In this document: piece after piece, positions 4,942 to 26,552 of the stretch
Position numbering within the stretch: the stretch's first letter is position 1
How the letters are laid out: each line of letters begins with the position of its first letter
NCBI GenBank assembly: GCA_021286895.1
Contig: JAJTBN010000003.1
Span: 1 to 41,438, forward strand
Origin: Bacteroidota bacterium
Lineage (GTDB): Bacteria > Bacteroidota > Ignavibacteria > Tepidaquicellales > Tepidaquicellaceae
Reading direction: 5' to 3'
DNA: 41,438 bases
Made by a program: the position numbers and the translations under genes
Notes under the pieces: generated by a model
Told to the model about the DNA's origin: nothing
The model's database searches: none
The model's input: the letters and a program-made list of their open reading frames with translations, nothing else

Positions 4942-6150
4942 TTGTCGGCTCTGCAGGCATTCAACATCATTATTCCGCTTGTGTCCGTGCCCTATGCAGT
5001 GAGGGTAATTGGTGCAGAATATTTCGGGCTTATAAATTTTGCCGCCGCTTTTGCAGGGTTCTTCATAATTATAAGCGATTACGGATTTAACTTCACCGCG
5101 AACAGGGACATTGCGAAGAACAGAAATGACAGGGATAAATGCATGGAAATATTTAATTCCGTACTGACGCTGAAATTACTTTTGCTCTTGTTGTCTGTGT
5201 TGATATTCGTATCGGGTGTATTCCTTTTTCCGGGTATTTTTTACGAAAGGCCGGTTTTCTTTATCAGTCTCGGAACTCTGGCAGGTATGGCACTTTTTCC
5301 GCAGTGGTTCTTCAAGGGTATGGAAAAGATGCTTTATGTCACGGTTCCGGGAATTGTAATCCGCGCGGCGGCAACGCTTTTGGTGTTCTTTGCCGTCAGA
5401 GAAAAATCGGATTACGTAGTTTATGCCCTTCTTCTTAACGGCGGCAACTTTCTGCTCGGAATTACCGGTATTCTGATAGTCGCGGTTAAATTCAGGTATA
5501 AATTTTATTTCCCCTCTCGGCGGGTACTGTGGAAGGATTTCCGCGAAGGACTTGAGGTTTTTTATTCGATAATTTGTACGAGCGTTTACGGCTATGCCAA
5601 CACGTTTATCCTCGGGCTTTTTTCTGACCTGAAGGTTGTCGGATTCTATGCGGCGTCTGACAAGATTGTATCGGGAATAGTCGGCATCATTTCCAATCTG
5701 AACGAAAGCACATATCCCCGCATTTCTTCGCTGCTCGTTGAAAACAGGGAAAAAGGCGTTGAGATGATTAAGATGTCCGCGAAAATAATCGGGACTGTAT
5801 CGTTGTCATTCTCTTTTCTGCTGTTCATTTTTGCTAAACCGCTGGTTCTTGTAATTTTCGGCGATGAATTCGCTTCAACCGTTCCGTTGCTTAGGATAAT
5901 GTCACTGATTCCTTTGTTTTTGCCGCTGAATAACCTGCTCGGCGTACAGACTATACTCAATATGGGTTACAAGAAAGATTTTTTACGTATAATTTCAGCG
6001 TCTCTTTTATTCTTTCTCACAGTTTCCTTCACGCTCGTCCCCTTTTTCAGGGCAGAAGGAACGGCGATTGCAATTACAGGAACAGAATTACTGGTTCTAC
6101 TTTTAATGGCTTTGTTTGTGAAGAGAAAAAAACTGCTTAATTACGAATGA
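4942..6150 (+). CDS. Polysaccharide flippase (Wzx/MATE-like, MVF superfamily)
   Basis: This 402-residue integral membrane protein has about twelve helices. The N-terminal sequence LQAFNIIIPLVSVPYAVRVI, followed by GAEYFGLINFA, is characteristic of Wzx-type oligosaccharide flippases, as is the RDIAKNRNDRDKC segment after helix 2. It should flip undecaprenyl-linked glycan units from the cytoplasmic to the periplasmic face of the inner membrane. Starting at TTG 4942 removes the first conserved amphipathic segment. The in-frame sequence just upstream continues the family pattern but has no ATG, GTG or TTG until an ATG that is followed directly by a stop (4858-4863). So the start is uncertain: a non-AUG codon such as ATT 4897, TTG 4942, or a nonsense mutation at codon 2. 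It overlaps glf by 4 bp and heads the glycan cluster. Confidence 0.85.
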   Translation: MSALQAFNIIIPLVSVPYAVRVIGAEYFGLINFAAAFAGFFIIISDYGFNFTANRDIAKNRNDRDKCMEIFNSVLTLKLLLLLLSVLIFVSGVFLFPGIFYERPVFFISLGTLAGMALFPQWFFKGMEKMLYVTVPGIVIRAAATLLVFFAVREKSDYVVYALLLNGGNFLLGITGILIVAVKFRYKFYFPSRRVLWKDFREGLEVFYSIICTSVYGYANTFILGLFSDLKVVGFYAASDKIVSGIVGIISNLNESTYPRISSLLVENREKGVEMIKMSAKIIGTVSLSFSFLLFIFAKPLVLVIFGDEFASTVPLLRIMSLIPLFLPLNNLLGVQTILNMGYKKDFLRIISASLLFFLTVSFTLVPFFRAEGTAIAITGTELLVLLLMALFVKRKKLLNYE

Positions 6151-7232
6151 AGTACGATTATTTGATAGCGGGAGCCGGATTCGCGGGCTCGGTAACCGCC
6201 GAGCGTATCGCGAATATACTCGGCGCAAAAGTTCTCGTCGCGGAGAAACGCGGGCATGTCGCGGGTAACGCTTACGATTTTACGGATGAAAACGGGATTC
6301 TCGTGCAACAATACGGTCCGCATATATTTCACACGAACGATAAAAAAGTCTTTGAATATCTTTCGGGGTTCACGGAGTGGAAAAAATATGAGCACAGGGT
6401 CGTATCCAGAATCGGAGGAAAAGATTATCCAGTGCCTGTAAACATGATAACCCTTAACTTACTTTACGGGCTCGAACTGAAAACTGAAGACGAAGTGAAA
6501 AATTATTTCGACTCCGCCGCTGAAAAGAACGGGGGCGAAAACTCGGAGAAAATTATTACAGGAAGAATCGGAAGAGACCTGTATGAGAAATTTTTCGAAA
6601 AGTTTACTGAAAAAATATGGTTCGAACACCCTTCAAACCTTGCACCGAATGTGTGCGGAAGAATTAATGTCAGGTATAACGATGACTGCAGGTACTTCAC
6701 CGACAAATATCAGTATATGCCGGCAAACGGGTTTACTAAATTGGTGGAAAGTATGCTGGATAATCCGATGATAGACGTAAAACTTAATACCGATTTCAGG
6801 GATGTCGACAGGGCTCTTTACGGTAAACTTGTTTATACGGGCCCTATCGATGCTTACTTCGGTTATGAATACGGAATTCTGCCTTACAGAGGGATTAAAA
6901 TGGTGTTTGAAAAGCATGATAAAGATTTATTCCAGAAGCATGCGGTAATTAATTTCCCGGGTGATGAACCTTTTTACAGGATAACAGAGTTCAAGCACAT
7001 AACAGGCGGAAATTCCGGTTCAACCACTATTTGTACCGAGTATTCGGATAAAGAGGGAGAAAGATTCTATCCGAAACGGACCCCGGAAGCTCTTAAAATA
7101 TTTTCTCTTTATAAGAACGAAGCGGCAAAATTAAATAACGTTTATTTTACAGGCATGCACCCCGCTTTTCAGTATTATGACGTGGGGCAGGTCGTGGCAA
7201 TGTGCCTGAAAGATTTTTCAAAACTGGCTTGA
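6147..7232 (+). CDS. glf: UDP-galactopyranose mutase
   Basis: This 361-residue flavoenzyme interconverts UDP-galactopyranose and UDP-galactofuranose in the cytoplasm. The N-terminal FAD-binding Rossmann motif is GAGFAG (residues 9-14), followed by the glf phrases KRGHVAGNAYD, QQYGPHIFHTN and YPVPVNM. KIWFEHPSNL, the CRYFTDKYQYMPANGFTKL stretch and TGPIDAYFGY also match, and the C-terminus has the second FAD contact region YFTGMHPAFQYYDVGQVV. Its presence predicts Galf in the surface glycan made by this cluster. It overlaps both neighbours (flippase by 4 bp, GT4 by 4 bp), so it is in the same operon. Length and motifs are normal. Confidence 0.96.
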   Translation: MKYDYLIAGAGFAGSVTAERIANILGAKVLVAEKRGHVAGNAYDFTDENGILVQQYGPHIFHTNDKKVFEYLSGFTEWKKYEHRVVSRIGGKDYPVPVNMITLNLLYGLELKTEDEVKNYFDSAAEKNGGENSEKIITGRIGRDLYEKFFEKFTEKIWFEHPSNLAPNVCGRINVRYNDDCRYFTDKYQYMPANGFTKLVESMLDNPMIDVKLNTDFRDVDRALYGKLVYTGPIDAYFGYEYGILPYRGIKMVFEKHDKDLFQKHAVINFPGDEPFYRITEFKHITGGNSGSTTICTEYSDKEGERFYPKRTPEALKIFSLYKNEAAKLNNVYFTGMHPAFQYYDVGQVVAMCLKDFSKLA

Positions 7233-8452
7233 GGCAAAACAAAAAAATATTGTTCACTTCATTTGATGGGATTCCTCGGGAAACGCAGGGAGGCCCCGGC
7301 AATATTATTTTTAAGATTCTTAAAACAATAAACAGGGAAAAATATTCATGTGATTTCCTTTCCTACGGGAATTATCTCATTAATCCTCTCCTGAAAACTT
7401 CCACGGAAATAAAACCGGGCCTGAAAAAAACCGTTACGGATTATCTTTATTGCAAATCGAGGGTTTACAGAATGCTGACCGCTAACAGTTTTTATCTTAA
7501 AAGACATTTTGAAAGCAGAGACAGATATTTCGCGAAATATTCCGGTAATGAAATTTATGAGATAGTGCATTCTCACGACACTCTTTCGGGTTATTATTTC
7601 AGGCCGGACAAAAAAGCCGTAAAAATTCTTACCATTCACGGAAATGGATCGATTGAAAGCGACTGGGCTGACGCTGCTTCGAAAAACAAATATATTAAAG
7701 AATTTATTCCGGAATTTAAAAAAAGAGAAATTGAGGCTTATAACAGTGCGGACGTAGTTACGTTTCCGGGTACTTATGCAAAGGAACTCTTTCTTTCCGA
7801 TTACGGTATAAAACTCCGCCGTGATAAAGACCTTCGAGTTATACAAAACGGAATCGACACGGAATTTATATCGGAAGTAAAACCCGAAAAAAGCCTCCTC
7901 GAAAAATACGGGCTGAAACCTTCTCACGATATTGTACTGCTTAATCCGGCTGCCCATGTAAGGCAAAAGAATATTGACCTGGTTATTGCTACGGTTGAAA
8001 AACTGGTAAGTATGAAAAGGAATCCGCTTCTGATAAATGCCGGTTCGGGACCACTGACGGGCGATTTGAATTCCTTAATAAAAAATAAAAATCTGGGAAG
8101 AAATGTCGTTCTCGCCGGAAAAATCAGCCATAGCGAACTTATATCGTTGATGAAATCTTCCGGTGCTGTTATTATGATGTCGGAAAGAATAATTTTCGAT
8201 CTGGTTATACTTGAAGCCGCAGCGTGCGGTATCCCTCTTGTCACTGACCTGTCCGGCGGTAACAGGGAAATGCTTGAAGGCTACGAAATGCTTGCCGAAA
8301 TAAAAGATAAATCCCCGGAAGCTACTGCGGGGCTTATCATGGATAAAATTTATTCCGGAACCTTGAGGAAAAGGAAGAATCCCTCCTTTAGGTTTAAAAC
8401 AAAAATGATGACGGACGCTTACGAAAAATTATATAATGAAGTAATCAGGTGA
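7229..8452 (+). CDS. Glycosyltransferase family 4
   Basis: This GT-B fold enzyme has about 407 residues. The N-terminus has the pattern KKILFTSFDGIPRETQGGPG, a Gly-rich acceptor-side loop usual in GT4. The donor-binding half has RVIQNGID, then AAHVRQKNIDLVIATVEKL, INAGSGPL and VVLAGKISHSEL. The ExxxxxxxE region, SERIIFDLVILEAAACGIPL followed by VTDLSGGNREML, would bind the nucleotide sugar. It should transfer a sugar retentively to a growing lipid-linked glycan on the cytoplasmic face; donor and linkage are unknown. I chose TTG 7229, which overlaps the glf stop (TTGA), over an in-frame GTG at 7202 that would run deep into glf. It overlaps the next gene by 4 bp. Confidence 0.85.
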   Translation: MRQNKKILFTSFDGIPRETQGGPGNIIFKILKTINREKYSCDFLSYGNYLINPLLKTSTEIKPGLKKTVTDYLYCKSRVYRMLTANSFYLKRHFESRDRYFAKYSGNEIYEIVHSHDTLSGYYFRPDKKAVKILTIHGNGSIESDWADAASKNKYIKEFIPEFKKREIEAYNSADVVTFPGTYAKELFLSDYGIKLRRDKDLRVIQNGIDTEFISEVKPEKSLLEKYGLKPSHDIVLLNPAAHVRQKNIDLVIATVEKLVSMKRNPLLINAGSGPLTGDLNSLIKNKNLGRNVVLAGKISHSELISLMKSSGAVIMMSERIIFDLVILEAAACGIPLVTDLSGGNREMLEGYEMLAEIKDKSPEATAGLIMDKIYSGTLRKRKNPSFRFKTKMMTDAYEKLYNEVIR

Positions 8453-9498
8453 AAAAAAACATTCTTCATATAACGAACGAACTGAATACCGTGGACGGCG
8501 TTACTAACCACACGTTTGTACTGCTTAACGGTCTTTCCCGGGTTTTTCAGGGGGAGATTTTTATTATTGCCGGCGGAGGGAATAATACCGGATTATTTAC
8601 AAACACAGAAATCATAACCGAAATAAATCGGAGCGTCAACCATAAAACCCGCAGTATTCGGATTTTCGCCTCGGCGGTGAAATACGTCAGGGATTTTGTA
8701 AAGAAAAACAATGTCGGAATTATACATTCTCACAATCATTATGCGGCCAACATTGCCCGTTTCGTGTCGATGTTAACCGGCGTTTCTACTGTTCAGACCA
8801 ATCACGGATTTTTTCCGGACAAGGGAAAGCTGAACCTTTTTAATGCCGATTATCATATCGCGTTGAACGCAGGGGTGTTGAGACATCTTGCTGAAAAAGG
8901 CATTCCGGAAGAAAGGATACGGTTGATTAAGCCGGGAATCCCAGAAATAACAGATATTAAGGCGAAAATAAAAAACTCGTTTCTGGCTGCTTCAAGGTAC
9001 TCGAAAGAAAAAGGACTCGATAAATACATATCTGCTTCTAACGCCATTGAATCAAAATATCCCGGCAAATTCAAATTCTATATTGCGGGCGAGGGAGACG
9101 AAGAAAAACGTCTGATGCAGCAAAGCTCTCAGGTCGGTGGCGCGGTGGCTTTCGTGAAAGATTATAAAAAATATCTTACTTCTGCGCGGGTGTTTGTCTT
9201 TCCCTCTGAGGCGAGGGAAGGCCTTCCGACCGTTCTGCTTGAATCGGTATTATCGGGTTGCCTTGTTGTTTCTTCCGCGTACGAAGGGGCAGGGGATTTG
9301 TTTCCGGTTCCTTTTAACGGCCTGCTTTTTAAACCCGGCAATGCCGAAGAGCTCGCCGATAAGATGATTTACGCTGCAGATAATTCAGACAGGCTCGTAG
9401 AATCATACAGAGGTTTGTACCAGAACATCAAAAAAGAGTATTCAGTTGAAAAAATGGTTAAAGAGCATCTGCAACTTTACGGGGAAATCTTATCCTGA
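8449..9498 (+). CDS. Glycosyltransferase family 4
   Basis: This 349-residue GT-B enzyme starts with GTG overlapping the previous stop. The N-terminal half has ITNELNTVDGVTNHTFVLLN and IIHSHNHYAANIARF, the HxHN-type loop seen in GT4 enzymes. The C-terminal half has SRYSKEKGLDKYI, FYIAGEGDEE and the donor-binding region PSEAREGLPTVLLESVLSGC. It should act in the same glycan pathway as the upstream GT4; the sugar cannot be predicted. Its 3' end overlaps the 3' end of the convergent GT2 gene by 22 bp, so this is the last gene of the first glycan operon segment. Confidence 0.86.
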   Translation: MKKNILHITNELNTVDGVTNHTFVLLNGLSRVFQGEIFIIAGGGNNTGLFTNTEIITEINRSVNHKTRSIRIFASAVKYVRDFVKKNNVGIIHSHNHYAANIARFVSMLTGVSTVQTNHGFFPDKGKLNLFNADYHIALNAGVLRHLAEKGIPEERIRLIKPGIPEITDIKAKIKNSFLAASRYSKEKGLDKYISASNAIESKYPGKFKFYIAGEGDEEKRLMQQSSQVGGAVAFVKDYKKYLTSARVFVFPSEAREGLPTVLLESVLSGCLVVSSAYEGAGDLFPVPFNGLLFKPGNAEELADKMIYAADNSDRLVESYRGLYQNIKKEYSVEKMVKEHLQLYGEILS

Positions 9499-10454
9499 AC
9501 CGAGCCTGTCTGTCTGAGGAAATTCCGGATTTTTCTATTTCTTTCGGAAAAATAATTTAAAAGATACGATATCCGGAAACGAATTCTCATTTCCCTGAAT
9601 TTTACAAAAAGTCCTTTGCTTAAAAAGGTGGATAAATACCCGGGGAATATCCGTGAGAATAAGAAAAGCCACGCCGGCGCTTTTCTGAAATATGCTCTCG
9701 CGCTCTTTTTGCTTCCGTAAAAATATTCTCGCCATCCGCGTATTATATTCTCGCCGCTTTTCGTTATTCCGAATTCCGCTACGGGATTTATGAAATATTT
9801 TTCAGTGTATGAATATACGGTTCTGTTTTTCTTTTCGATATCGAGCGATATTGATTTTCCGTGATAACGCTTCAAAAGAAGAGTCTCGGGAAGATTGTGA
9901 AAACGGATTTTATCTTTTATCCGTAGCCACAGTTCGTAATCCTCAATAAAACCGCCGCTGTATCCTCCGTGATCCAATATTACACTCTTTCTGTACATGA
10001 CACCAGGGTGAATAACCTCGGAGTGAAGAGAAAGCCTTCGCTTGATGTCCTCATGCTCCGTGCATGTTCTGATGTCGAATAAAACTTTACTGCCGGAGAA
10101 CATAGCATAATGACAAGAAAGTACATGGATGTGTCCGTATTCGTTCATGAATTTGAACTGTTTTTCAAGTCTTTCGGGTAAAGATATGTCATCCCCGTCC
10201 ATCCTTGCTATGAGTTCAAATTTTGATTCCCTAAGACCCTTATTCAGTGTGTTACCGAGCCCGGTGTTTTTATCGTTTACAATAAGTCTTATTCTTTTAT
10301 CATTGAAGGCTTCAATCTTATTTATCGTATCATCAGAAGAATAGTCGTCGATAATAAGAAATTCAAAATTTCCGAAAGTTTGATTCAAAATGCTTCTGAT
10401 TGCCAGTGAGACGTATTCGGAATTATTATATGTCGGCATCAACACAGTAATCAT
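9477..10454 (-). CDS. Glycosyltransferase family 2
   Basis: This 325-residue GT-A enzyme opens with ITVLMPTYNNSEYVSLAIRS and ILNQTFGNFEFLIIDDYSSD, the classic GT2 start with the first Asp of the nucleotide-sugar site. The metal-binding DxD appears as ELIARMDGDDISLPERLEKQ. HSEVIHPGVMYRKS and GGYSGGFIEDYELWLRI give the later acceptor and catalytic-base region (ED). The C-terminal ~90 residues are basic and hydrophobic, as in many membrane-associated GT2 proteins. It is the only gene of the 4.9-22.6 kb block on the minus strand and overlaps the preceding gene tail to tail, so it must have its own promoter in the gap at 10455-10690. Sugar and acceptor are unknown. Confidence 0.88.
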   Translation of the reverse strand: MITVLMPTYNNSEYVSLAIRSILNQTFGNFEFLIIDDYSSDDTINKIEAFNDKRIRLIVNDKNTGLGNTLNKGLRESKFELIARMDGDDISLPERLEKQFKFMNEYGHIHVLSCHYAMFSGSKVLFDIRTCTEHEDIKRRLSLHSEVIHPGVMYRKSVILDHGGYSGGFIEDYELWLRIKDKIRFHNLPETLLLKRYHGKSISLDIEKKNRTVYSYTEKYFINPVAEFGITKSGENIIRGWREYFYGSKKSARAYFRKAPAWLFLFSRIFPGYLSTFLSKGLFVKFREMRIRFRISYLLNYFSERNRKIRNFLRQTGSVQDKISP

Positions 10455-10690: not shown

Positions 10691-11329
10691 ATGGCGTTCT
10701 TTGCACCTTATAAATATAAATTTGTTAAACTTCTGAATACCGGAGGGAAAAATATTCTTGACGTTGGCGCTGCGAACGGCAGCCCCGAGATGTTTTTCTC
10801 TTACTTTAAAGGTTATGAATATGATGCGCTGGATATTGACGAGGAATGCCTTTCGGAGAAAGGAAAGAAACTAATTAACAGATTCTATAAAGCCGATCTT
10901 GAAAAAGACGATCTGTCTGAGATACCTGATAATCATTACGATTATGTTGTTTTGTCGCATGTGATAGAACATATCGATAACGGCGAAAAAGCGCTTGAAA
11001 AACTTGCTTTAAAGATTCGAAACGGCGGCCTGATGTATGCGGAATATCCCTCTGCGAAATCCGCACGCTTACCGTCCATGAAAGGAACCTTGAATTTTTA
11101 TGACGATCCGACGCATAAAAGATTTTATGATTTAAATAAATTAAAGAATGTTTTGTCGGGAAACGGGTTTGAAATTCTGAAGTGCGGTGTGAAACGGGAT
11201 ATTCTCAGGATTGCCGGTATTCCGTACATGGTCGTTAAATCTCTGATTAAACTGGGATACGTCAGAGGAAGCGCGTTCTGGGACCTGTTCGGATTTGCTG
11301 AGTTTTTGCTCGCAAGGAGGGTGAAATAA
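10691..11329 (+). CDS. Class I SAM-dependent methyltransferase
   Basis: This 212-residue protein has motif I NILDVGAANGS (residues 21-31) for S-adenosylmethionine binding, an acidic motif II (ALDIDEECL), and the motif IV region YDYVVLSHVIEHIDN common in Methyltransf_11/23-type enzymes. The C-terminal third (FYDLNKLKNVLSGNGFEIL) also fits that group. In this context it probably methylates a sugar or a glycan end, perhaps capping chain length, but the substrate is not readable. It opens the second glycan operon segment, and its stop overlaps the start of the GT9 gene (TAATG). Confidence 0.82.
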   Translation: MAFFAPYKYKFVKLLNTGGKNILDVGAANGSPEMFFSYFKGYEYDALDIDEECLSEKGKKLINRFYKADLEKDDLSEIPDNHYDYVVLSHVIEHIDNGEKALEKLALKIRNGGLMYAEYPSAKSARLPSMKGTLNFYDDPTHKRFYDLNKLKNVLSGNGFEILKCGVKRDILRIAGIPYMVVKSLIKLGYVRGSAFWDLFGFAEFLLARRVK

Positions 11330-12249
11330 TGAAAGTTCTGATTATTTCCACAAACGCTTTCGGCGACACATATCTTTCGTCCTCTGCGATAAAGATTATA
11401 AGAGATATATTACCCGGTTCGGTCATAGATCTTCTGACTATTCAGGACTGTTCGTTTTTTACCGAATACCTCGGATTTGATAATGTGTTCTTCATAGAAA
11501 AACGCGGAGCAAGAGAGCTGCTTAAAACAAGAAAATTTCTCGGCGAAAGAAAGTATAATTTCGTGTTCTCTTTCTTCCCGGGAAGGATGAATTCTCTGCT
11601 TGTCATGCAGTCAGTATCTCCGAATAAATACTACTACAAAAACATTCTGAAACTTGAAGACTGGTCCGGCGCGTCTCAGCATGTATACTATAATTCCCAA
11701 AAAACAGACAAGGTGTGGGAGCCGTCGATGAACTATCTCCTGCGGATTAAACTGCTTCTTGATTTGGCATTCGGCAACGATAATTCGCTCGCAAAACCTG
11801 TTTTCAGTTTCAACCCGAATCTTCGCAATAATATTCCGGGTGAAGTTTTGATAAATTATTCGTCCAAAGAAGAAAACCGTCGCATCGGGTTAAAATTGGT
11901 TAATGAGTTGTCAGAATACATATCTAAGGTATTTAACAGACAGGTTTGTCTGCTCGATTTCGAAGGCGATTTCAGTGAGAAACCCGATTACATTGTCTTT
12001 CCCGAGAGTTATAATTTCAGAGAAACTATGAGCAGGATAGTATCATCCGGCATGTTCATATCTGTTGATTCTTTCCTTTTGCATCCCGCTGAAGCGTACG
12101 GAGTAAATCTTCTCGGTATATTCGGCCCTACAAATCCCGGTTCGGTGCTTTCTTCGGGTTCAAGAAATTTCATTCGTGTAAACCCCCTTAAAAGTTTAAC
12201 GCTCGAAGATGTTGTTCCGTATGTAAGAAAATTGCTCGGGGAAGAATGA
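11329..12249 (+). CDS. Glycosyltransferase family 9 (heptosyltransferase-like)
   Basis: This 306-residue GT-B protein has an N-terminal KVLIISTNAFGDTYLSSSAI segment, matching the Gly-Asp loop of heptosyltransferases. The C-terminal donor-binding region SVDSFLLHPAEAYGVNLLGI followed by FGPTNPG corresponds to the GT9 signature, although the usual DTG is DSF here. It probably adds a heptose or similar sugar to the cell-surface glycan. It is a divergent member, and the 5'-truncated gene at the left edge is a more typical one. It overlaps neighbours on both sides by 1-4 bp, so it is in one operon with the methyltransferase and the GT26 gene. Confidence 0.82.
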   Translation: MKVLIISTNAFGDTYLSSSAIKIIRDILPGSVIDLLTIQDCSFFTEYLGFDNVFFIEKRGARELLKTRKFLGERKYNFVFSFFPGRMNSLLVMQSVSPNKYYYKNILKLEDWSGASQHVYYNSQKTDKVWEPSMNYLLRIKLLLDLAFGNDNSLAKPVFSFNPNLRNNIPGEVLINYSSKEENRRIGLKLVNELSEYISKVFNRQVCLLDFEGDFSEKPDYIVFPESYNFRETMSRIVSSGMFISVDSFLLHPAEAYGVNLLGIFGPTNPGSVLSSGSRNFIRVNPLKSLTLEDVVPYVRKLLGEE

Positions 12250-12980
12250 ATAAAAGAATCTTAAATACACGGATTGATTTTGCGGATTACGACACCTTAT
12301 TGTCGCTAATTTTCGAAAATGTTGAAAAAGGGAAAAAACTAACTTTAACTTATGCGAATTCGCATATATGCATATCCGCCGCTAAGGATTGCTTGCTGCA
12401 TGATTGCCTCGAGAAATTCGACATTGTTCACCGGGACGGAATCGCCGTTCACAAAGCCTGCCGGTTTCTTTATCCATTTGAATATGGTCTTGCCCGTATG
12501 AACGGAACCGACCTTTATCGCAGGCTTTTCACCTGCGGCAGGGCGTTCAGCTGTTTCGTTCTCGGCGGCCCTCCGGACAGTCCGGAACTGTTGAGAAAAA
12601 ATTTCGGCGGACATGTCGATGTACGCGGGTTCATTCACAAACCGTCAGGAACGGATGCCGACATAGAAAAAATCAACAATTCAAATGCCGGAATTTTATT
12701 CGTCGCGCTCGGCACGTCCGCTCAGGAAAAGTGGATTATACTTAACAGGGATAGAGTAAACGTTCCTGTTATTATAGCCACAGGAAGCGGAATTGATTTC
12801 CTTACCGGTAAAAAGAGACGGGCGCCGTTATTCATGAGAAAACTCGGCATGGAGTGGCTTTACAGGCTTTTTTCCGAACCCGTGAGATTATGGAAAAGAT
12901 ATCTTGTTATGAATCCTTTTTTTATATTTAAAGTTATACAGCAAAAACTTAAATTAACCGAAAAACAAGGGAATACGTAG
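12246..12980 (+). CDS. WecG/TagA/CpsF-family glycosyltransferase (GT26)
   Basis: This 244-residue protein has the ordered GT26 motifs: TYANSHICISAAKD near residue 40, HRDGIAVHKACRFL with the conserved Asp at residue 64, and RMNGTDLYRRL. Further on are VALGTSAQEKWI and the C-terminal RRAPLFMRKLGMEWLYRLFS followed by EPVRLWKRY. Family members transfer N-acetylmannosamine(-uronic acid) or similar sugars to lipid-linked GlcNAc early in enterobacterial common antigen, teichoic acid linkage and capsule synthesis, at the inner face of the membrane. That marks the product as an undecaprenyl-linked surface glycan. The stop codon (TAG) is directly followed by the ATG of the first C25 gene, with no gap. 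Confidence 0.93.
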   Translation: MNKRILNTRIDFADYDTLLSLIFENVEKGKKLTLTYANSHICISAAKDCLLHDCLEKFDIVHRDGIAVHKACRFLYPFEYGLARMNGTDLYRRLFTCGRAFSCFVLGGPPDSPELLRKNFGGHVDVRGFIHKPSGTDADIEKINNSNAGILFVALGTSAQEKWIILNRDRVNVPVIIATGSGIDFLTGKKRRAPLFMRKLGMEWLYRLFSEPVRLWKRYLVMNPFFIFKVIQQKLKLTEKQGNT

Positions 12981-15900
12981 ATGAAGCGTGTTTTACTCCT
13001 ACTTCTAATATTGTCCGCCGTTCCGGCATTTTCCCAGAACTATAACTGGATAACCCCCAATAAAACTTATCTGAAAATGTATGTCGCTGAAGACGGCATC
13101 TACAGAATCAACAAAACGGATTTTACGCAGGCGGGTATTTCCACTGCATCGATCGACCCAAGAACCGTGAAGGTGATTTATAAGGGCTCTCAGATTCCGA
13201 TTTATTTTTACGGTGAACAGGACGGCGTTTTCAACGACAATGATTATTTTGATTTCTACGGAAAGCGCAATTACGGAGGAACAACTGTCACATACAAAGC
13301 GACAAATGATACACTCGCTATTGTTGATTACACAACGGACGAATATTTTAATCTTTACTCCGATACATCCTGTTATTGGATTGACTGGGGCGGCGCGTCC
13401 GGCCTGCGGTTCGCGGATTACGGTTATTCTACATCTTCTTTGTTCCCGAATCAGTACTATTATTCAAAAATTCAACTTGAAAAGGATTCCGTATATAATC
13501 CGGGAGAGCATCGTTCAAACGACGATTACAGGTTCTTTAATACCGAGAAAATATCGGGTGAAGGGTGGTACTGGAAAGAACTTATGTTCGGTAACCCGAG
13601 TTCGACCACTCTTACGACTTATTTCAGCCTTAACAATCTGTTCGCATTGCCGCAAAATGTTTCGTTCAGGATTTTTGCCTATCCTAATTCTTATTCCGAT
13701 ACCATATACAACGAACACAGCCTTATAATAAAAGTAAACGGAAATAATATTGATACTCTCTTTACGAATGATTATAACAGAATTGATACCGTAATAACGT
13801 TTTCTTCTTCGAACCTTACACAGGGACAGAATCAGGTATCGGTAATATATAAAGGCGCCGGAAATTATCCGGGACACATGTACCTTGATTATATCAGCTT
13901 ACAGTACCCGGCACGGTTCGAGTTTGTAAACAACTCCATATCGTTTAACGCGGGACTTTCCGATACTTCTGCGAAAGTATTTAAAGTGAAAGGGCTCGTA
14001 ACGGGCAATGATATCAATATATACGACGTGAAGAATAATTTACGGATTTCTGTTTCCTTGTCAAGCGCGGATACGCTCGTTTTTTCAGGAAAGGGCAACG
14101 GACAGTTCGAGATTGCAAACTCCTACATAACAAAAAAACCTTTCAGGATAAAACAAAGACAGGTTCCGGACCTTATCTCCGCGTCGAACGGAACGGACTA
14201 TCTGATTGTGTACAATAAACTTATGGAAACACCCGCGGAGCAGTTAAGACAGTACCGAAACAGCCATGACGGTTTCAGGTCATTCAAAGCGGAGATTGAG
14301 GACGTTTATGATATATTCAATTTCGGAATGGAAAATCCCGTTGCAGTAAGAAATTTCACGAAATACGTTTATGATAACTGGCAGCAGCCGAAAATGAAAT
14401 ACCTCTGCCTTATCGGCAGAGGCTCGCTTGACCCGAAAGGAAATTCTCCGCTCTCAGTTTATTTCTCAAACCTGATTCCTGTTTACGGGAATCCTCCGTC
14501 GGACGGATATTTCGCGAATTTTACCGCAAATGCAGGAACGTATTATCATCAGATAGCCGTAGGAAGAATTCCCGCGCTGACCTCTGCCGAGGCTTCTGAT
14601 ATCATAAACAAAACAATTGCATACGAGAACCAAACTGTCAATCCTGAAAATTTCTTTAAAACATTCGTTTTTATAACAGGAGGACAAAACCGTTCGGAGC
14701 AGATTTCGTTCGCGGGTCAGGCCGAGATTTTTATAAATACATATATACTTCCGTCTCCGGTATCCGGGTATCCCGTAAGAATATACAGGAATGATTCAAG
14801 CGGTTACGTAACGTATAATTATTCCGATTCTATTAAAAACGCGATTAACCGCGGCGGAATAATTACCAATTACATCGGGCATGCAGGAAGTACTACATGG
14901 GATAACGGTCTTGATGATCCGGGAATATTAACTAACCAGAATAAACTGTCGCTAATTCTCAGTATGACATGCTTTACAGGCAAGAATGCCGAAACCTCAC
15001 TGAGAAGTTTCGGCGAAAAATTTCTTTATCTTGCGAACAGGGGAGCAATCGGGTTTGTGGGAACTACCGGATGGAGTTTTTCAGGTTCCGGAAACACTCT
15101 TAATGGATACATTTTAAAAGGATTTGCGTTCGATACACTGAGGCGTATCGGCGATGTTCTAAGGTCCGCTTCGGCGAGACTTTATTCGGACCCTGTAAGT
15201 TTCGCATCGAGAAATACGATAAACTGTTACGGGTTAATGGGTGATCCCGCGGCGACTCTGCTAATACCCAAATATCCCGAGTATGCAATTGACATGTCAA
15301 ATTATAAACTCTCAAATCCATTTCCTTCTGTAAAAGAACAGATTACGCTTACTGCGTATCCGAGAAATCTCGGAATATATTCGGATTCCGTCAAAGTAAG
15401 ATTCACTTTGTTAAAGAACAGTGCGGCCATCAGAGTTAAAGATACACTTGTCCGCGGTTTTGGGTTTGTCGATACGCTTAATTATGTATTCTCGATAGAT
15501 TCGGCCGGAAGTTATTCCATGAATATATTTCTCGATCCCGATCACTGGAATACAAAGGAAATCAGGACAAATAATGCAATCACTTTTCCGATAAACCTTA
15601 AAAATCTTTCATTCATTCCGCTCAAGCCGGTTGATAACGAGGTTGTCGGCGGTGATACTGTGTTGATTACAGGAATCAATCCGAATGTCAGCAGGGGAAA
15701 CAGCGTGAGGCTTTTGCTTCAGGTCGACACATCGTCTTCGTTTACTTCGCCCCTGAGCAGGACGTTCTTTACATCCGGCGGTCAGGGAGTAATAACAAGG
15801 TTTGGATACGCGGTGCCGTTTAAAGACAGTAACACAGTGTATTATTTAAGAATGAATTCGATAATCAATAATACTGACACGTCAGGATGGTCGGAGACAA

Positions 15901-17840
15901 GAAGGTTTATTTATGGAAATTACTATTTTGCCCCGAACCGGAATTTCACTCAGCAGAGCCGGGGAATAACTGATAAAGAGATAGCAGTTAATAAAATAAA
16001 AGCCGGACAGTACGACGCGGCTGATCTGTACAATGCTTCCGGAAATCCCCTGGGAATTTCAATCAGCAGGTATTCGGGAAATATAACGGCGCAATCATGG
16101 GGGAACAACCTGTTCAATATGACCCGTCTGACTGTTAACAACAACGAGTTTCAGATGGTCGATACAGCCTCATGGGGCGGGCTTAATGTTATTAAACTTA
16201 ATAAAACCGATGCCCGGCTTCTGGAGAAGAGACATTTTGCGTTCTCGACAATACAAGCAAACGATTCGGTTATAAATTATCTTAACACATTTACTGATAA
16301 CAATGTACTGGTGATTTTAAAGACTTCTCCTTATAATACAAACTTTACGATAAACAGCAGTCTCAGAGCCCGTATCAGAATTCTCGGCAGTACGTATGTA
16401 GATTCTGTCAGTCTACAGTCTTACTCCTGCTGGAGTTTCATCAATTACAGCGTTCAGCCATCGGTAGTATCGGCGGAAAGTTATAACACGGCGTTCAACC
16501 CCGCGGTATGCTCGATGCAGCCGGTTTTCATGTATGACTCGGCGTATGTTTACAATACTATGGGTCCCGCGCAGACGTGGTCGCATTTTAACTGGGGTCA
16601 GACTCTGCCGTCGTATTCAGGAATGACCTTCGATGTTTACGGTGTTAACAGGCAGAATCAGAATGTGCTTCTTTACGGAAACCTCACATGGAATTCGAAC
16701 GTTTTGCTCGATACGCTTAATGCATATAACTATCCCAGTGTAAAAATCATTTCGAAACTTCGTATCGATTCCCTTAACGGAACAGATTCGCCCGTGCTAA
16801 ACGGTTTCAGGTTCAATTATACGCCGGCTCCGGAAATTATAGCCGATAATAATTCATTCATTAAGAGCGACAGCGTACTGCAGGAAGGGGATACCGTCAA
16901 CGTTTCCGTTTCATTCGGAAACTATGGTTACTCGGATGCATCGGGATACATCGCAAAATGGTCGGCGACTTCTCCGTCGGGACTTAGAGTTCTGAGAATC
17001 GATACGCTTATCAGCGCTCTTAAAATTGATTCTATGGTGACAGTATCCGCGAAACTTCCGACGATAGGTCTTCGCGACAGGAATAAAAGATTCGATACAG
17101 TAACGGTGTATTTTGAAGCCGGATTAATCCGGCAGAATGAGTTCTTCACTTATAATAATGTTGCCGCGTCCCGTATAGTCGTCACAGGCGATACTCTGAA
17201 ACCGGAAATGGAAATAACTTACGACGGTATAAAAGCACTTTCGGGCGAATACATTTCGGCAAATCCGCATATAGTGCTGAAGTTTCTTGATGACAGCAAG
17301 ATTTTTATTAAAGATACCTCAAATATACGGATAAAACTCGACGGTGAGCCTGTATGGTATTTCCTTAACGGTGTTAAGAATCCGGACCTTGATATTGTTT
17401 TTACTGCCGGAAAGTACAGGCAGGCAACGGTTTACTACAATCCTAAATTGTCAAACGGAGAAAGAATGTTCGAGTTTGCTTCTACAGACGCGAATGGGAA
17501 TTATGCCGATACTATCGTTCATTACATGAACGTCAATCCCGACCTGAAGATTGAAAGCCTCATTAATTATCCGAATCCCATGAAGAACGAGACGCTTTTC
17601 CTTGTAAATCTTTCCGGCAGTTATCCTCCGTCTTCGGCTAAAATTAAAATATTTACGGTTGCCGGAAGAAATATAAAAACGATTAATGCAAACCTGAGCA
17701 TAGGTTACAACCAGATACCATGGGATGGCAGGGATGCGGATGGCGATTATATTGCAAATGGAGTATATTTGTATAAGTTAATAATCGAAGGTAACAGCAA
17801 AACCGAAACGGCATTGCAGAAATTAGTTGTACTAAAATGA
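12981..17840 (+). CDS. Giant C25 (gingipain-family) PorU-like protein with ILEI-like domain and C-terminal sorting domain, copy 1
   Basis: This 1,619-residue exported protein begins with a signal peptide (MKRVLLLLLILSAVPAFS). The N-terminal domain has the PorU-like phrases YVAEDGIYRINKTDFTQAGI and IPIYFYGEQDG, with FDFYG after them. The C25 protease domain (about 400-760) has the candidate dyad His634 in NYIGHAGSTTW and Cys664 in LSMTCFTGKN. After it come a CARDB-like domain (about 765-880), an Fn3-like module (882-985), an ILEI/FAM3-like segment (about 1062-1160, GLNVIKLNKTDARLLEKRHF through ILGSTYVDSV), more beta modules and a FlgD/T9SS-type C-terminal domain from about 1525 (NYPNPMKNE, WDGRDADGDYIANGVYLYKL). 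In Porphyromonas the C25 protein PorU is an outer-membrane sortase that removes T9SS sorting domains. A similar role is inferred, though a plain surface protease is possible. It is fused by zero spacing to the glycan operon. Confidence 0.85.
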   Translation: MKRVLLLLLILSAVPAFSQNYNWITPNKTYLKMYVAEDGIYRINKTDFTQAGISTASIDPRTVKVIYKGSQIPIYFYGEQDGVFNDNDYFDFYGKRNYGGTTVTYKATNDTLAIVDYTTDEYFNLYSDTSCYWIDWGGASGLRFADYGYSTSSLFPNQYYYSKIQLEKDSVYNPGEHRSNDDYRFFNTEKISGEGWYWKELMFGNPSSTTLTTYFSLNNLFALPQNVSFRIFAYPNSYSDTIYNEHSLIIKVNGNNIDTLFTNDYNRIDTVITFSSSNLTQGQNQVSVIYKGAGNYPGHMYLDYISLQYPARFEFVNNSISFNAGLSDTSAKVFKVKGLVTGNDINIYDVKNNLRISVSLSSADTLVFSGKGNGQFEIANSYITKKPFRIKQRQVPDLISASNGTDYLIVYNKLMETPAEQLRQYRNSHDGFRSFKAEIEDVYDIFNFGMENPVAVRNFTKYVYDNWQQPKMKYLCLIGRGSLDPKGNSPLSVYFSNLIPVYGNPPSDGYFANFTANAGTYYHQIAVGRIPALTSAEASDIINKTIAYENQTVNPENFFKTFVFITGGQNRSEQISFAGQAEIFINTYILPSPVSGYPVRIYRNDSSGYVTYNYSDSIKNAINRGGIITNYIGHAGSTTWDNGLDDPGILTNQNKLSLILSMTCFTGKNAETSLRSFGEKFLYLANRGAIGFVGTTGWSFSGSGNTLNGYILKGFAFDTLRRIGDVLRSASARLYSDPVSFASRNTINCYGLMGDPAATLLIPKYPEYAIDMSNYKLSNPFPSVKEQITLTAYPRNLGIYSDSVKVRFTLLKNSAAIRVKDTLVRGFGFVDTLNYVFSIDSAGSYSMNIFLDPDHWNTKEIRTNNAITFPINLKNLSFIPLKPVDNEVVGGDTVLITGINPNVSRGNSVRLLLQVDTSSSFTSPLSRTFFTSGGQGVITRFGYAVPFKDSNTVYYLRMNSIINNTDTSGWSETRRFIYGNYYFAPNRNFTQQSRGITDKEIAVNKIKAGQYDAADLYNASGNPLGISISRYSGNITAQSWGNNLFNMTRLTVNNNEFQMVDTASWGGLNVIKLNKTDARLLEKRHFAFSTIQANDSVINYLNTFTDNNVLVILKTSPYNTNFTINSSLRARIRILGSTYVDSVSLQSYSCWSFINYSVQPSVVSAESYNTAFNPAVCSMQPVFMYDSAYVYNTMGPAQTWSHFNWGQTLPSYSGMTFDVYGVNRQNQNVLLYGNLTWNSNVLLDTLNAYNYPSVKIISKLRIDSLNGTDSPVLNGFRFNYTPAPEIIADNNSFIKSDSVLQEGDTVNVSVSFGNYGYSDASGYIAKWSATSPSGLRVLRIDTLISALKIDSMVTVSAKLPTIGLRDRNKRFDTVTVYFEAGLIRQNEFFTYNNVAASRIVVTGDTLKPEMEITYDGIKALSGEYISANPHIVLKFLDDSKIFIKDTSNIRIKLDGEPVWYFLNGVKNPDLDIVFTAGKYRQATVYYNPKLSNGERMFEFASTDANGNYADTIVHYMNVNPDLKIESLINYPNPMKNETLFLVNLSGSYPPSSAKIKIFTVAGRNIKTINANLSIGYNQIPWDGRDADGDYIANGVYLYKLIIEGNSKTETALQKLVVLK

Positions 17841-20800
17841 AAAAAATTTTTATTGTTCTATTATTATTTTTATTGGTATGTTCTGTACGTTCACAGAATT
17901 ACAACTGGATTACTCCGAACACTACATACCTCAAGATGTATGTTATTAATAACGGCATACACAGGATAGAAAAAGCCGACTTTACCAATGCCGGAATATC
18001 AGTTACAGGCCTTGACCCGAGAACTGTGAAAGTTTATTACAAAGGGAACCAGGTGCCGATATATTTCTACGGTGAAGGTGACGGTACTTTCGACGACGGC
18101 GATTATTTTGATTTTTACGGAACCCGGAATTACGGAGGGCTGACGAACACATACGATGAAGCCGGGAATGTAGCATACACAACTAATGAATATTATAACC
18201 CGTATTCCGATACTTCAGTTTACTGGATTGGATGGGGCGGCGCGAACGGTTTAAGGTTTGCGGATTATTCGAACGCTTCCTCGGTTCCTTATTCGCTGGA
18301 TTATTACAACGCAACACTTCATTTTGAAAATGATCAAGTATATAATCTTGGTCAAAACATTAATTCAAACGATTATTTCAATTTTCTTAATGACAAATAT
18401 AAAGGCGAAGGCTGGTTTTGGGCGGCTATGGCTTTTAATAATCAAATGGCAAGTTCATTCAACATAAGCAATCTTTCAAATACTGTGCAACAGTGCAAAT
18501 TTAGATTCTATGCCTATCCGTATAATCAGAATACTGCTATTACAAACGAACATCGGTTTGTCGTGAAGATAAACGCAACACAATTTGACACTTTAAGATT
18601 CGATGATTTTGCCAGACAGGATACAACTATATATTTTCAGAGTTCGATACTTAATGCGGGTGCGAATACATCCATGATAAAATATATGCCTATTAATTCT
18701 GGCGGAATTACTCTGTACACTTTTTTTGATTTTTATGAAATTACTACATCCAGGCGATTTCAATTCGATAGCAGCTATCTTGGCTTTACCAGTGAACTTA
18801 CTTCAGCTTCACCTTCATTGTTTTGGGTAAAAGGAGCGGTGTCATCTAATCCGATTTCTATATATGATACAAAAAACGGTTACCGAATAACGAATTATTC
18901 GTTTTCAAATGACACGCTTTACTTTACAGGCCCGACAAACGGAACATTCGAAATATATAATAAATATATAACGAGAAAGCCTTTCAGGGTTAAACAAAAA
19001 CAGGTGCCAAATCTTGTAACCAATTCGACGGGTGCGGATTATATCCTCGTATACAATAAAGTGTTTGAGACACAAGCAGAACAATTAAGGGCCTATAGAA
19101 ATTCTCACGACGGGTTCAGATCAATTAAAGCCGAAATAGAAGATATTTATGATATTTTCAATTATGGCATGGAAGATCCTATCGCCGTCAGGTATTTTGT
19201 AAAGAACGCGTTTGAAAATTGGGCAGTTCCAAAACCGGGATATTTGTGTTTGTTCGGGAGGGGGTCGACTGACCCTAAAAGACTTCAATCAAATTCAGTT
19301 TTATCCCAGAATTTCGTTCCTGTTTTCGGTAATCCGGTTACTGACGGGTATTTTGCGAATTTCAGCATGGCGACTCAGTACTATAAACACCAGATAGCGG
19401 TCGGACGGCTTCCCGTTGTATCAACGCAGGAGGCTCAGGATGTAGTGAATAAAATCATTGCGTATGAAAATCTGGGATTGCCTTCATGGATTAAAAAATC
19501 TGTGTTTATTGCCGGCGGTTATGATATGAATGAGCAGCAAAATTTCGCCTATCAATCCAATGTTCTGATAAATAATTATATTTCAACGCCTCCTTTCAGC
19601 GCCAGTCCGACCAGAATTTTTCTGGGTGATTCTACGGGAATGGTCACTTATAACTATCCTGACTCGGCTATAAAATCAATAAATAAAGGCGCGCTGGTCG
19701 TAAATTATATGGCGCACGCGCCGGACGGATACTGGCTTAATCTTTTCGATGATCCTGCGATTTTGTCAAATCAGAACAGATATCCGCTCGTGATTAGCCA
19801 GACATGCTTCACGGGAAAACATGCGGAGGCGAACCTGAGAGGATATACAGAAAAGTTCATTGTAAACGCGAACAAAGGCTCAATCGGATTTATAGGCACT
19901 ACCGGCTGGAGTTTTAATGGGACAGGAAACATGTATAATGATATCATTCTCGCAAGTTTTACACATGATACGATAAGAAGAATCGGCGACATATTAAAAA
20001 AATCTTCCGGTATGCTGGATTCCAACGATTTCTATAACAGAAATACAGTTAACTGTTACGATATAATGGGGGATCCGGCAACAAAACTGCTCTGGCCGAG
20101 ACACCCGGAGTTTGACGTGCTTAACAACGATTATTATATCTCCGATTATAATCCGCAGTTCAAAAAGAATATTGCTTTTAAAGTCTATCCCCAGAATCTT
20201 GGAACCTATGTTGATTCATGTAAAATAAGATTTCAGGTACTTAAAAGAAATATCGCGTATAAAACAAAAGATACAATTATTCGCTCATTCGGAAATATTG
20301 ATACTTTGTGCTATTATCTGTCTTTCGATACAGCAGGTGATTATTCTCTTAAAATTATCGTTGATCCGGATAACTGGTATCCCACCGACAGTAAATCGAA
20401 CAATACGCTCGTCGTGCCCGTAACAGTTAAGAATTTTTCTTTTATGCCTCTTAAACCCGAGAACAATCAGGCGGTGTATAAAGATACTGTCGAAATCACA
20501 GGCATCAATCCTAATGTTGACACTAGAAGAAACACCATTAAACTGCTACTCCAGTTTGATACTTCCGCGGCATTCGGCTCCTCTGCGGTTCAGAATTACC
20601 AGATACAAAACATGACAGGCGTGAGAACAAAGATTAAAGTCCGGCTGCCATATCTTGACAGCACGGTTGTTTATTACTGGAGACTGAATTCTATTCTAAA
20701 TAACACAGATACCCTCGGCTGGTCGGATACGAGGTCTTTTACTTATCACGGGTCTTTTGCCAGAAACGATTCGCTTATTTTGATAAGCAGGTATAAACCG

Positions 20801-22645
20801 GGGCAGTTCTATCCGGATGAGCTGACAGGGCTTTCCTCGTCGCAGATCGGGGTTGTCATTTCGAGCTATACAGGAGGTATTATCGCGAGTTCGTTCAGCG
20901 GGAATATGACGAATCCGACCTATATGATGCTGAACAAAAATTATTATTCCTTTATTGATCCAAGTTTTCTGAGCGGGCTTATTGTAGCCAAAATGTCGAA
21001 GATCACAGGCTCGGTCCTTGATATTAAACACTTTTTCTTTACGGCTTCAACATCCAGCGATTCACTTGCGAATTTTCTTAGTACGTTTGATACAACGCAT
21101 ATATTATCACTTGTGAAAGAACCTCCGATCGGAACATCCTATTCTCTGAATTCTTCGGCGAAGGCGCTCCTGAGACTAATGGGAAGCGTATACGCAGACT
21201 CTGTTAACGTTGCTGACTGGATGAGATGGAGCTTTGTCAGTTATATAAGGATACCTAATCCGATAAAATCGGAAGCTTACAAGATTACTTTTTCGCCCTG
21301 GGATGCCGCTAATTCATCAATGAACGTTTCATTCCTGAATCCCAGTGGAACGGCTTCTCTAATTTTCGGCCCTTCACAAACCTGGCAAAACTTTAACTGG
21401 CTGCAGAACGTCTACACGGGCTCAAGCGTAAAGTTTGATGTGGTAGGTATTGATGCCAATAATACGGAAACAACACTTCTTACCGGTTTGACATCCAATA
21501 ACTTCGTTGATATTCATACTATAAACGCTTTGCAGTATCCGCATCTGAAACTTGTCGCGAATGAATTGGTCGATACACTTGAGGGAACGCAGTCTCCCGT
21601 CATAACGGGCGTTTCTCTGAATTACATCGGCCCGCCTGAAATCGCGCTTGATAATAATTCGATTTTTAAATCGGACTCCGTCGTAACCATGGGCGACAGC
21701 GTTGGCATCGCGGGGTATTACTACAATATCGGCTACGTTCCGCTTAACAGGCATATAAGAAGTTTCTACGCGCTCGACGGCGCAGGGAATAAAGTCATTC
21801 TCAGAACTGATACTGTAAATACACCGCTCAAAGTCGACAGCTCGATGTACGTTAAAGCGAGTTTCAAAGTGAACGGCTTGCCTATCTATAAGAAATACCT
21901 TAATCAGATTGCCGTCGTTCTTGAAATTATTCCCGTAAATCAGAACGACCTTTATGCGTTCAATAATGCCGTTATCTCTACTTTCTACGTCAAAGGCTCT
22001 CTTGCCGATTTCCAGACAGAGGTTTACTCTGACGGCACAAGGCTTTACGGCAATGACTACGTTAGAGCAAATCCCGACCTTATAATCAAACTATCGGGAA
22101 AATCCATAGAAGAACTTATTAATACCGATACTTCGCTGTTCAGAATTATGCTGAACGGAAATTTTATCTCTCTCAACGGGACTTCAAAAACGAATAAAGA
22201 CGTGAACGTCGTGAAAGATATGGAGAATGGGAATTTCATCGTCCGCTTCTCACCGAAACTTCAGAACGGTATCAATTACCTGAACCTGATTTCTAATAAG
22301 GGCGAAACTTATGATACTCTGAAGTTCGCGCTTAACGTGACGTCGGAAGTATCATTCCTAAAAGTATACAACTTTCCCAACCCAATGAAAGACAACACAA
22401 CCTTCACTTTCGAAATAACCGGCGCAGATCTCCCCGGAGATTACAGGATAAAAATCTACAGCGTCGCCGGAAGAGTGATTAAGGAAATCGATGCTCCCGG
22501 AAGAGTGGGGTTGAACAATATATACTGGGACGGCCGAGATGCGGACGGAGATTATATCGCCAACGGCGTTTACTTCTATCGCCTGCTTCTAAAGAACGAT
22601 TCCGAAATACACTCCGATGTCAGGAAACTCGTTGTCCTAAAATAA
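17837..22645 (+). CDS. Giant C25 (gingipain-family) PorU-like protein with ILEI-like domain and C-terminal sorting domain, copy 2
   Basis: This 1,602-residue paralogue is collinear with copy 1 over its whole length and overlaps it by 4 bp. It has a signal peptide, the same N-terminal domain (YVINNGIHRIEKADFTNAGI), and the C25 domain with candidate His627 in NYMAHAPDGYW and Cys657 in ISQTCFTGKH. The CARDB-like and Fn3-like modules, the ILEI-like segment (about 1047-1140) and the C-terminal sorting domain (FPNPMKDN, WDGRDADGDYIANGVYFYRL) are also in order. The Gly before the catalytic His is Ala here and the following Gly is Pro, so activity may differ from copy 1. The first ~1.5 kb is visibly more AT-rich than the rest. 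A tandem gene duplication followed by divergence is the simplest origin. It is the last gene of the operon, followed by a strong hairpin terminator. Confidence 0.85.
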   Translation: MKKIFIVLLLFLLVCSVRSQNYNWITPNTTYLKMYVINNGIHRIEKADFTNAGISVTGLDPRTVKVYYKGNQVPIYFYGEGDGTFDDGDYFDFYGTRNYGGLTNTYDEAGNVAYTTNEYYNPYSDTSVYWIGWGGANGLRFADYSNASSVPYSLDYYNATLHFENDQVYNLGQNINSNDYFNFLNDKYKGEGWFWAAMAFNNQMASSFNISNLSNTVQQCKFRFYAYPYNQNTAITNEHRFVVKINATQFDTLRFDDFARQDTTIYFQSSILNAGANTSMIKYMPINSGGITLYTFFDFYEITTSRRFQFDSSYLGFTSELTSASPSLFWVKGAVSSNPISIYDTKNGYRITNYSFSNDTLYFTGPTNGTFEIYNKYITRKPFRVKQKQVPNLVTNSTGADYILVYNKVFETQAEQLRAYRNSHDGFRSIKAEIEDIYDIFNYGMEDPIAVRYFVKNAFENWAVPKPGYLCLFGRGSTDPKRLQSNSVLSQNFVPVFGNPVTDGYFANFSMATQYYKHQIAVGRLPVVSTQEAQDVVNKIIAYENLGLPSWIKKSVFIAGGYDMNEQQNFAYQSNVLINNYISTPPFSASPTRIFLGDSTGMVTYNYPDSAIKSINKGALVVNYMAHAPDGYWLNLFDDPAILSNQNRYPLVISQTCFTGKHAEANLRGYTEKFIVNANKGSIGFIGTTGWSFNGTGNMYNDIILASFTHDTIRRIGDILKKSSGMLDSNDFYNRNTVNCYDIMGDPATKLLWPRHPEFDVLNNDYYISDYNPQFKKNIAFKVYPQNLGTYVDSCKIRFQVLKRNIAYKTKDTIIRSFGNIDTLCYYLSFDTAGDYSLKIIVDPDNWYPTDSKSNNTLVVPVTVKNFSFMPLKPENNQAVYKDTVEITGINPNVDTRRNTIKLLLQFDTSAAFGSSAVQNYQIQNMTGVRTKIKVRLPYLDSTVVYYWRLNSILNNTDTLGWSDTRSFTYHGSFARNDSLILISRYKPGQFYPDELTGLSSSQIGVVISSYTGGIIASSFSGNMTNPTYMMLNKNYYSFIDPSFLSGLIVAKMSKITGSVLDIKHFFFTASTSSDSLANFLSTFDTTHILSLVKEPPIGTSYSLNSSAKALLRLMGSVYADSVNVADWMRWSFVSYIRIPNPIKSEAYKITFSPWDAANSSMNVSFLNPSGTASLIFGPSQTWQNFNWLQNVYTGSSVKFDVVGIDANNTETTLLTGLTSNNFVDIHTINALQYPHLKLVANELVDTLEGTQSPVITGVSLNYIGPPEIALDNNSIFKSDSVVTMGDSVGIAGYYYNIGYVPLNRHIRSFYALDGAGNKVILRTDTVNTPLKVDSSMYVKASFKVNGLPIYKKYLNQIAVVLEIIPVNQNDLYAFNNAVISTFYVKGSLADFQTEVYSDGTRLYGNDYVRANPDLIIKLSGKSIEELINTDTSLFRIMLNGNFISLNGTSKTNKDVNVVKDMENGNFIVRFSPKLQNGINYLNLISNKGETYDTLKFALNVTSEVSFLKVYNFPNPMKDNTTFTFEITGADLPGDYRIKIYSVAGRVIKEIDAPGRVGLNNIYWDGRDADGDYIANGVYFYRLLLKNDSEIHSDVRKLVVLK

Positions 22646-22660
22646 AAACTTTTTAAAATA

Positions 22661-22694
22661 CACTTGACATTATTGTTTGTCAGGTGTATTTTTG
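22661..22694 (+). terminator. Hairpin terminator of the glycan/C25 operon, overlapping the next promoter
   Basis: CACTTGACA (22661-22669) pairs with TGTCAGGTG (22678-22686), eight Watson-Crick pairs plus one T-G, around an 8-nt loop, and is followed by TATTTTTG. It lies 16 bp after the stop of the second C25 gene. Confidence 0.65.
22664..22692 (+). promoter_or_regulatory. Sigma-70-like promoter of the TetR-efflux operon
   Basis: A perfect -35 TTGACA (22664-22669) is separated by 17 bp from TATTTT (22687-22692), with the TetR-type operator just downstream, where transcription would begin. The -35 box is the left arm of the upstream operon's terminator hairpin. Confidence 0.6.
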
Positions 22695-23382: not shown

Positions 23383-23383
23383 T

Positions 23384-24652: not shown

Positions 24653-24653
24653 T

Positions 24654-25547: not shown

Positions 25548-25571
25548 AACGGAATACGCACCTATTTTGTC

Positions 25572-25597
25572 ATTCCCCGCATGATTTTAGCGGGAAT
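25572..25597. repeat. Short palindromic intergenic element
   Basis: ATTCCCCGC (25572-25580) and GCGGGAAT (25590-25597) form a hairpin with one bulged C and a 9-nt loop. It lies in the 89-bp gap between the adaptor and ABC genes and resembles the ATTCCCGC...GCGGGAAT units scattered through many bacterial intergenic regions. There is no T run, so it is probably a repeat rather than a terminator, inside an otherwise tightly packed operon. Confidence 0.5.
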
Positions 25598-25636
25598 CAA
25601 AAACAAATAAAAGAATAAAGAGTAATAATTTTAAAA

Positions 25637-26551: not shown

Positions 26552-26552
26552 A

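Follow-up and report, generated by a model that had tools for sequence, protein, structure and literature searches.

PorU-like enzymes encoded directly behind surface-glycan genes suggest a dedicated protein-anchoring kit in Ignavibacteria

In Ignavibacteria, genes for PorU-like enzymes are located directly behind surface-glycan genes, and the maintenance of this pairing across the group suggests a dedicated protein-anchoring kit. Two such enzymes, giant proteins of peptidase family C25, are encoded in the window, as the whole stretch of 41,438 nucleotides analysed here is called, which derives from a Bacteroidota bacterium of the order Tepidaquicellales (contig JAJTBN010000003.1). With moderate confidence, the two proteins and their glycan genes are considered an accessory glyco-anchoring module, in which PorU2-type enzymes would conjugate cargo of the type IX secretion system (T9SS) by transpeptidation to the glycan made by their own operon. 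To our knowledge, the sugar that accepts T9SS cargo has been established in just a handful of oral bacteria, among which it varies. If this reading is true, gene neighbourhood could serve to identify acceptor and sortase jointly in uncultured Bacteroidota, and the uncharacterised PorU2 family would gain a testable function. In the open literature, searched without preprints and most subscription journals, neither a mention of PorU2 nor a paper on a link between C25 genes and a glycan operon in this lineage was found; equally, no paper on Ignavibacteria together with 'peptidase C25' was found in the open literature.

Gene order and edges of the glycan locus

Five open reading frames of the forward strand, identified by Pfam as methyltransferase, GT9-like glycosyltransferase, GT26 (WecG/TagA) and two C25 giants, follow each other back to back (Table 1) with, in this order, a 1-bp overlap, a 4-bp overlap, zero spacing and a 4-bp overlap. 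The gapless run of the original prediction is thus borne out in coordinates and spacings, while the sortase genes, said there to be fused to the glycan genes, are separate adjacent reading frames. The claimed end at one terminator was only partly recovered. A strong hairpin follows the run, but is absent from the terminator list of a consensus scan and partly coincides with a promoter-like site belonging to the TetR gene that comes next, so that a single terminator is likely, but not secure. Downstream of the operon (22744-29505), genes for a TetR regulator, an outer-membrane efflux protein, an HlyD-type adaptor and an ABC-2 exporter are located, the first three of which occupy the same position in four relatives.

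The glycan locus is bigger than previously described, extending to a Wzx-type flippase, a UDP-galactopyranose mutase and GT4 glycosyltransferases at 4942-9498 and a GT2 glycosyltransferase at 9477-10454. The flippase is conserved in 20 loci, a homologue of the Wzy_C-type protein stands beside the locus in three relatives and a counterpart of the methyltransferase is present only in one genome of the same genus. The GT26 gene, which adjoins the first PorU2-like gene, is the sole GT26 found in the source genome.

Table 1. Features in and around the glycan and C25 gene run of the window
Feature	Position	Strand	Evidence
TPR-containing membrane protein of Wzy_C/O-antigen ligase type (candidate polymerase or ligase)	3167..4801	-	PF04932, 72.6 bits
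Wzx-type flippase	4942..6150	+	PF01943, 154 bits
UDP-galactopyranose mutase (galactofuranose supply)	6147..7232	+	TIGR00031, 318 bits, above cut-off
GT4 glycosyltransferase	7202..8452	+	PF00534
GT4 glycosyltransferase	8449..9498	+	PF00534
GT2 glycosyltransferase	9477..10454	- (opposite to run)	PF00535
SAM methyltransferase, opens gapless run	10691..11329	+	PF13489
GT9-like glycosyltransferase	11329..12249	+	PF01075, 21.6 bits, just under 22-bit cut-off
GT26 (WecG/TagA/CpsF)	12246..12980	+	PF03808, 134.7 bits
PorU2-like putative sortase A (P0001, 1619 aa)	12981..17840	+	NF052324, 380 bits; NF033707, 352 bits; model matches PorU 6za2
C25 catalytic domain (H634, C664) of sortase A	14199..15257	+	Peptidase_C25 (Pfam)
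ILEI (FAM3/POMGnT1-stem-like) domain of sortase A	16179..16448	+	PF15711, 30.3 bits
T9SS C-terminal sorting domain of sortase A	17568..17807	+	TIGR04183, 25.8 bits, over cut-off
PorU2-like putative sortase B (P0002, 1602 aa)	17837..22645	+	NF052324, 342 bits; His/Cys align with PorU dyad
C25 catalytic domain of sortase B	19040..20089	+	Peptidase_C25 (Pfam)
ILEI domain of sortase B	20975..21244	+	PF15711, 25.2 bits, below 27-bit cut-off; family HMM, 118 bits
T9SS C-terminal sorting domain of sortase B	22373..22597	+	TIGR04183, 26 bits, over cut-off
AT-rich 15-bp hairpin; probably a terminator or a regulatory element of the TetR gene	22655..22692	+	dG -18.8 kcal/mol, z -4.5

The giant proteins as PorU2-like paralogues in a T9SS genome

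Both giants are members of peptidase family C25, with domain scores of 221.5 and 205.3 bits (Pfam cut-off 23) and catalytic His and Cys residues that align with the PorU dyad; in an alignment of relatives the Cys (C664 of P0001) is kept in 47/47 and the His (H634) in 46/47 sequences. The best family for both proteins is NF052324 (NCBIfam PorU2; 380 and 342 bits, below the cut-off of 450), whose match spans residues 5-865, with NF033707 (PorU) second (352 and 312 bits, below the cut-off of 420), and the PorU2 architecture of a long C-terminal half, an ILEI-type region and a C-terminal sorting domain is shared. A true PorU, which reaches 738 bits with NF033707, is encoded on another contig (C253) of the source genome. 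In a tree of C25 sequences, the PorU proteins group together in a clade of support 99 with the window giants outside, and the sequences from the order of the window form a separate clade (support 99); the deep nodes, on which the placement relative to canonical PorU2 depends, have a support of 82 and very short branches. The candidate sortases of the original prediction are C25 proteins of PorU-like character, but as PorU2-like paralogues beside a true PorU they point to an accessory module rather than to the T9SS sortase itself.

AlphaFold models of the two giants are confident (pLDDT 90 and 86), and the N-terminal half matches PorU 6za2 with an E of 8.7e-36 versus 2.8e-19 for the gingipains (Foldseek), which places it closer to PorU than to the secreted C25 proteases. 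This comparison bears on the alternative that PorU2 is a surface endopeptidase, which would mature secreted or outer-surface proteins and be linked to the operon because the local glycan serves as its own anchor and is not transferred. Plain proteases such as the gingipains do occur in family C25, PorU2 carries its own sorting domain and the true PorU present could do the anchoring; yet the entire N-terminal half is much closer to PorU, and an endopeptidase gives no account of why PorU2, among many proteins with sorting domains, is tied to an operon. We regard such a protease as unlikely.

The C-terminal half is modelled as a large beta-sandwich region with a POMGnT1-stem-like domain, and in a fold search the ILEI fold of sortase A resembled the POMGnT1 stem 5ggj (TMt 0.80), while a sequence search of the PDB with a hand-made ILEI consensus retrieved nothing beyond a weak FAM3A match. 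The POMGnT1 stem and FAM3C bind GlcNAc (PMC9802357); the Arg by which the stem contacts the sugar has no evident counterpart in the family of the window giants. The ILEI domain was considered as a marker of glycan-linked PorU2s alone and rejected as such: it is found throughout the PorU2 family, weakly in some members, and so does not set the glycan-linked members apart, while every true PorU protein tested lacked it. Such a C-terminal half would also suit a protein acting mainly as a glycan presenter, passing the operon glycan to the true PorU with the C25 domain kept in a secondary role, as PorZ binds A-LPS and brings it to PorU (PMC8545088). A mere carrier, however, needs no catalytic Cys, which is invariant in the 47 sequences, and PorU stays in genomes without PorU2 and GT26, so that a presenter role is judged improbable.

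Parts of the T9SS were recovered. SprA is present in 37/37 genomes of the order, with about 2,200 aa in most; the source genome contains, besides the true PorU, six PorV-family genes over cut-off and dozens of loci that match the PorU model at its sorting-domain end. With SprA in the genome and a TIGR04183 domain over cut-off at both C-termini, the giants themselves qualify as T9SS cargo or components. On the other hand, models of the PorL/GldL and PorM/GldM motor found no match, and none in control genomes either, so that these models have no positive control and absence of the motor is not claimed. Two irregular loci were observed alongside: in the source genome (G000, contig C297, L103/L104) SprA lies in two overlapping frames of about 1136 and 1081 aa, probably through an assembly or sequencing frameshift, and a genome of the same genus as the source carries two tandem true PorU genes of about 1,357 aa each (G001:C4:103700-112100, L246).

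Conservation of the linkage within and beyond the order

The order was sampled with 37 genomes, the named relatives being Ignavibacteriae MAGs; 35 of these genomes contain PorU2 and 34 contain GT26. In all 33 assessable genomes (19 genera sampled), PorU2 is located directly downstream of GT26 on the same strand, with a median gap of 87 bp behind the GT26 domain; one genome counted as adjacent (G015) has an extra 282-aa reading frame in between, and two (G009 and G034) were left out of the test for apparent contig breaks. This adjacency, which the original prediction had named as a point to check in relatives, is far beyond chance, since most genomes of the order (24 with a single GT26 gene) possess only one GT26, beside PorU2. 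Neither PorU2 nor GT26 is present in G006 (77% complete) and G019 (99% complete), although these two genomes have retained SprA and PorU; the joint absence gives a Fisher p of 0.0045 with phylogeny ignored. At least three co-directional glycan genes are found upstream of PorU2 in 29/29 loci inspected in the order versus 0/20 loci of the true PorU, taken from 20 genomes of that order.

Apart from the GT26-PorU2 pair, locus content is shuffled between genomes and the upstream glycan genes vary. Two recurrent families of proteins with multiple membrane spans and no Pfam match (17 and 8 members; L047:6813-8429 and L047:9474-10982), possibly GT-C-like transferases or polymerases, were noticed in PorU2-linked operons. 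Variable glycan gene content, together with PorU2 of other classes that has no glycan neighbour, could indicate that the sortase genes stand behind a polysaccharide locus through ancestral gene order only, with no shared function. Against it, the adjacency has persisted in 33/33 genomes despite the shuffling of the remaining locus, PorU2 and GT26 are missing together in two genomes, and the linkage recurs with a second type of operon and has nothing similar at the true PorU. Mere ancestral neighbourhood is therefore considered very improbable.

The second operon type, seen in several genomes, is rich in GT2 genes, has no GT26 beside the sortase and equally ends in PorU2 genes. The PorU2s of the GT2-type operons constitute one clade (8 rows, support 100), the GT26-type PorU2s of the same genomes another. 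As suggested, each sortase might be matched to its local glycan, each of the two operon types being accompanied by a PorU2 clade of its own; common descent of the linked unit would, however, yield the same pattern, which supports a stable pairing without proving specificity. More tentatively, and with a probability that we set well short of even, Ignavibacteria might maintain several parallel display cassettes, each consisting of a glycan operon and its matched C25 sortase or sortases, by which different secreted proteins would be presented on different glycans in one cell. The two tandem copies of the window fall into two groups of the C25 tree, which related genera show again in the same succession, and the duplication is therefore old. 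As a separate observation, an operon of the second type starts with a protein of about 2,470 aa with at least five GT2 domains (L055:1028-8452; also L059, L063 and L069).

PorU2 is also found behind glycan genes in six other families belonging to the class, where a co-directional glycosyltransferase is among the two nearest genes at 19 of the 24 loci inspected. In other classes the same holds for 3/36 PorU2 loci; a PorV/PorQ-family gene is directly upstream at 11/36, one of these 11 scoring as PorV2 (NF052325, 563 bits), and most loci are without glycan genes, so that the glycan link is not a trait of the whole family. What had looked like a separate gene, 'c4', upstream of PorU2 in the class proved to encode an N-terminal extension of PorU2. 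PorV2 as a dedicated PorU2 partner in the order is unsupported, a PorV2-like gene (below cut-off) being present also in genomes without PorU2.

Proposed anchoring route and comparison with known systems

The glyco-anchoring module proposed originally as self-contained is sustained as an accessory one, with the adjacency conserved in relatives, T9SS components elsewhere in the genome and models that side with PorU. In this accessory module, the operon would build a lipid-linked glycan via its GT2, GT4, GT9 and GT26 transferases, with galactofuranose supplied, and Wzx would flip the glycan. The two PorU2-like proteins would reach the cell surface via the T9SS using their own sorting domains; there, the C25 Cys/His dyad would cut the sorting domains off cargo proteins and join the new C-terminus to the operon glycan, while the ILEI domain might hold the sugar. 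The established precedent is PorU, which conjugates cargo with a sugar on the cell surface (PMC7468200, PMC8545088), and the linking sugars vary among T9SS species (PMC11969387).

The closest known proteins are the members of NF052324, annotated as 'putative type IX secretion system sortase PorU2' and putative even in NCBIfam, which the giants resemble in length (about 1,600-1,900 aa), C25 dyad, ILEI-type region and sorting domain. The members above cut-off, unlike the giants, which score below it, belong to other classes and mostly have no upstream glycan operon, several standing behind a PorV/PorQ-family gene. With PorU of Porphyromonas gingivalis (6za2; NF033707) the giants have the fold of the N-terminal half, the C25 dyad and the C-terminal sorting domain in common, but are about 450 aa longer, possess ILEI, fall short of the PorU cut-off and share their genome with a true PorU. 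In P. gingivalis, the Wbp/Vim pathway makes the A-LPS, to a sugar of which cargo is attached by PorU (PMC7468200), and the linker glycan has been proposed to be assembled on undecaprenyl-PP (PMC13086638). The proposed logic of an undecaprenyl-linked glycan as acceptor for sorted cargo is the same, whereas the window locus contains other sugar genes (GT26, GT9, UDP-galactopyranose mutase) and has its sortase genes directly behind the glycan genes. The exosortase/PEP-CTERM system likewise combines the gene of a protein-sorting enzyme with adjacent exopolysaccharide loci (PMC7468200); exosortase, however, is an inner-membrane enzyme unrelated to C25 that involves no outer-membrane T9SS step, and in this it differs from the system of the window.
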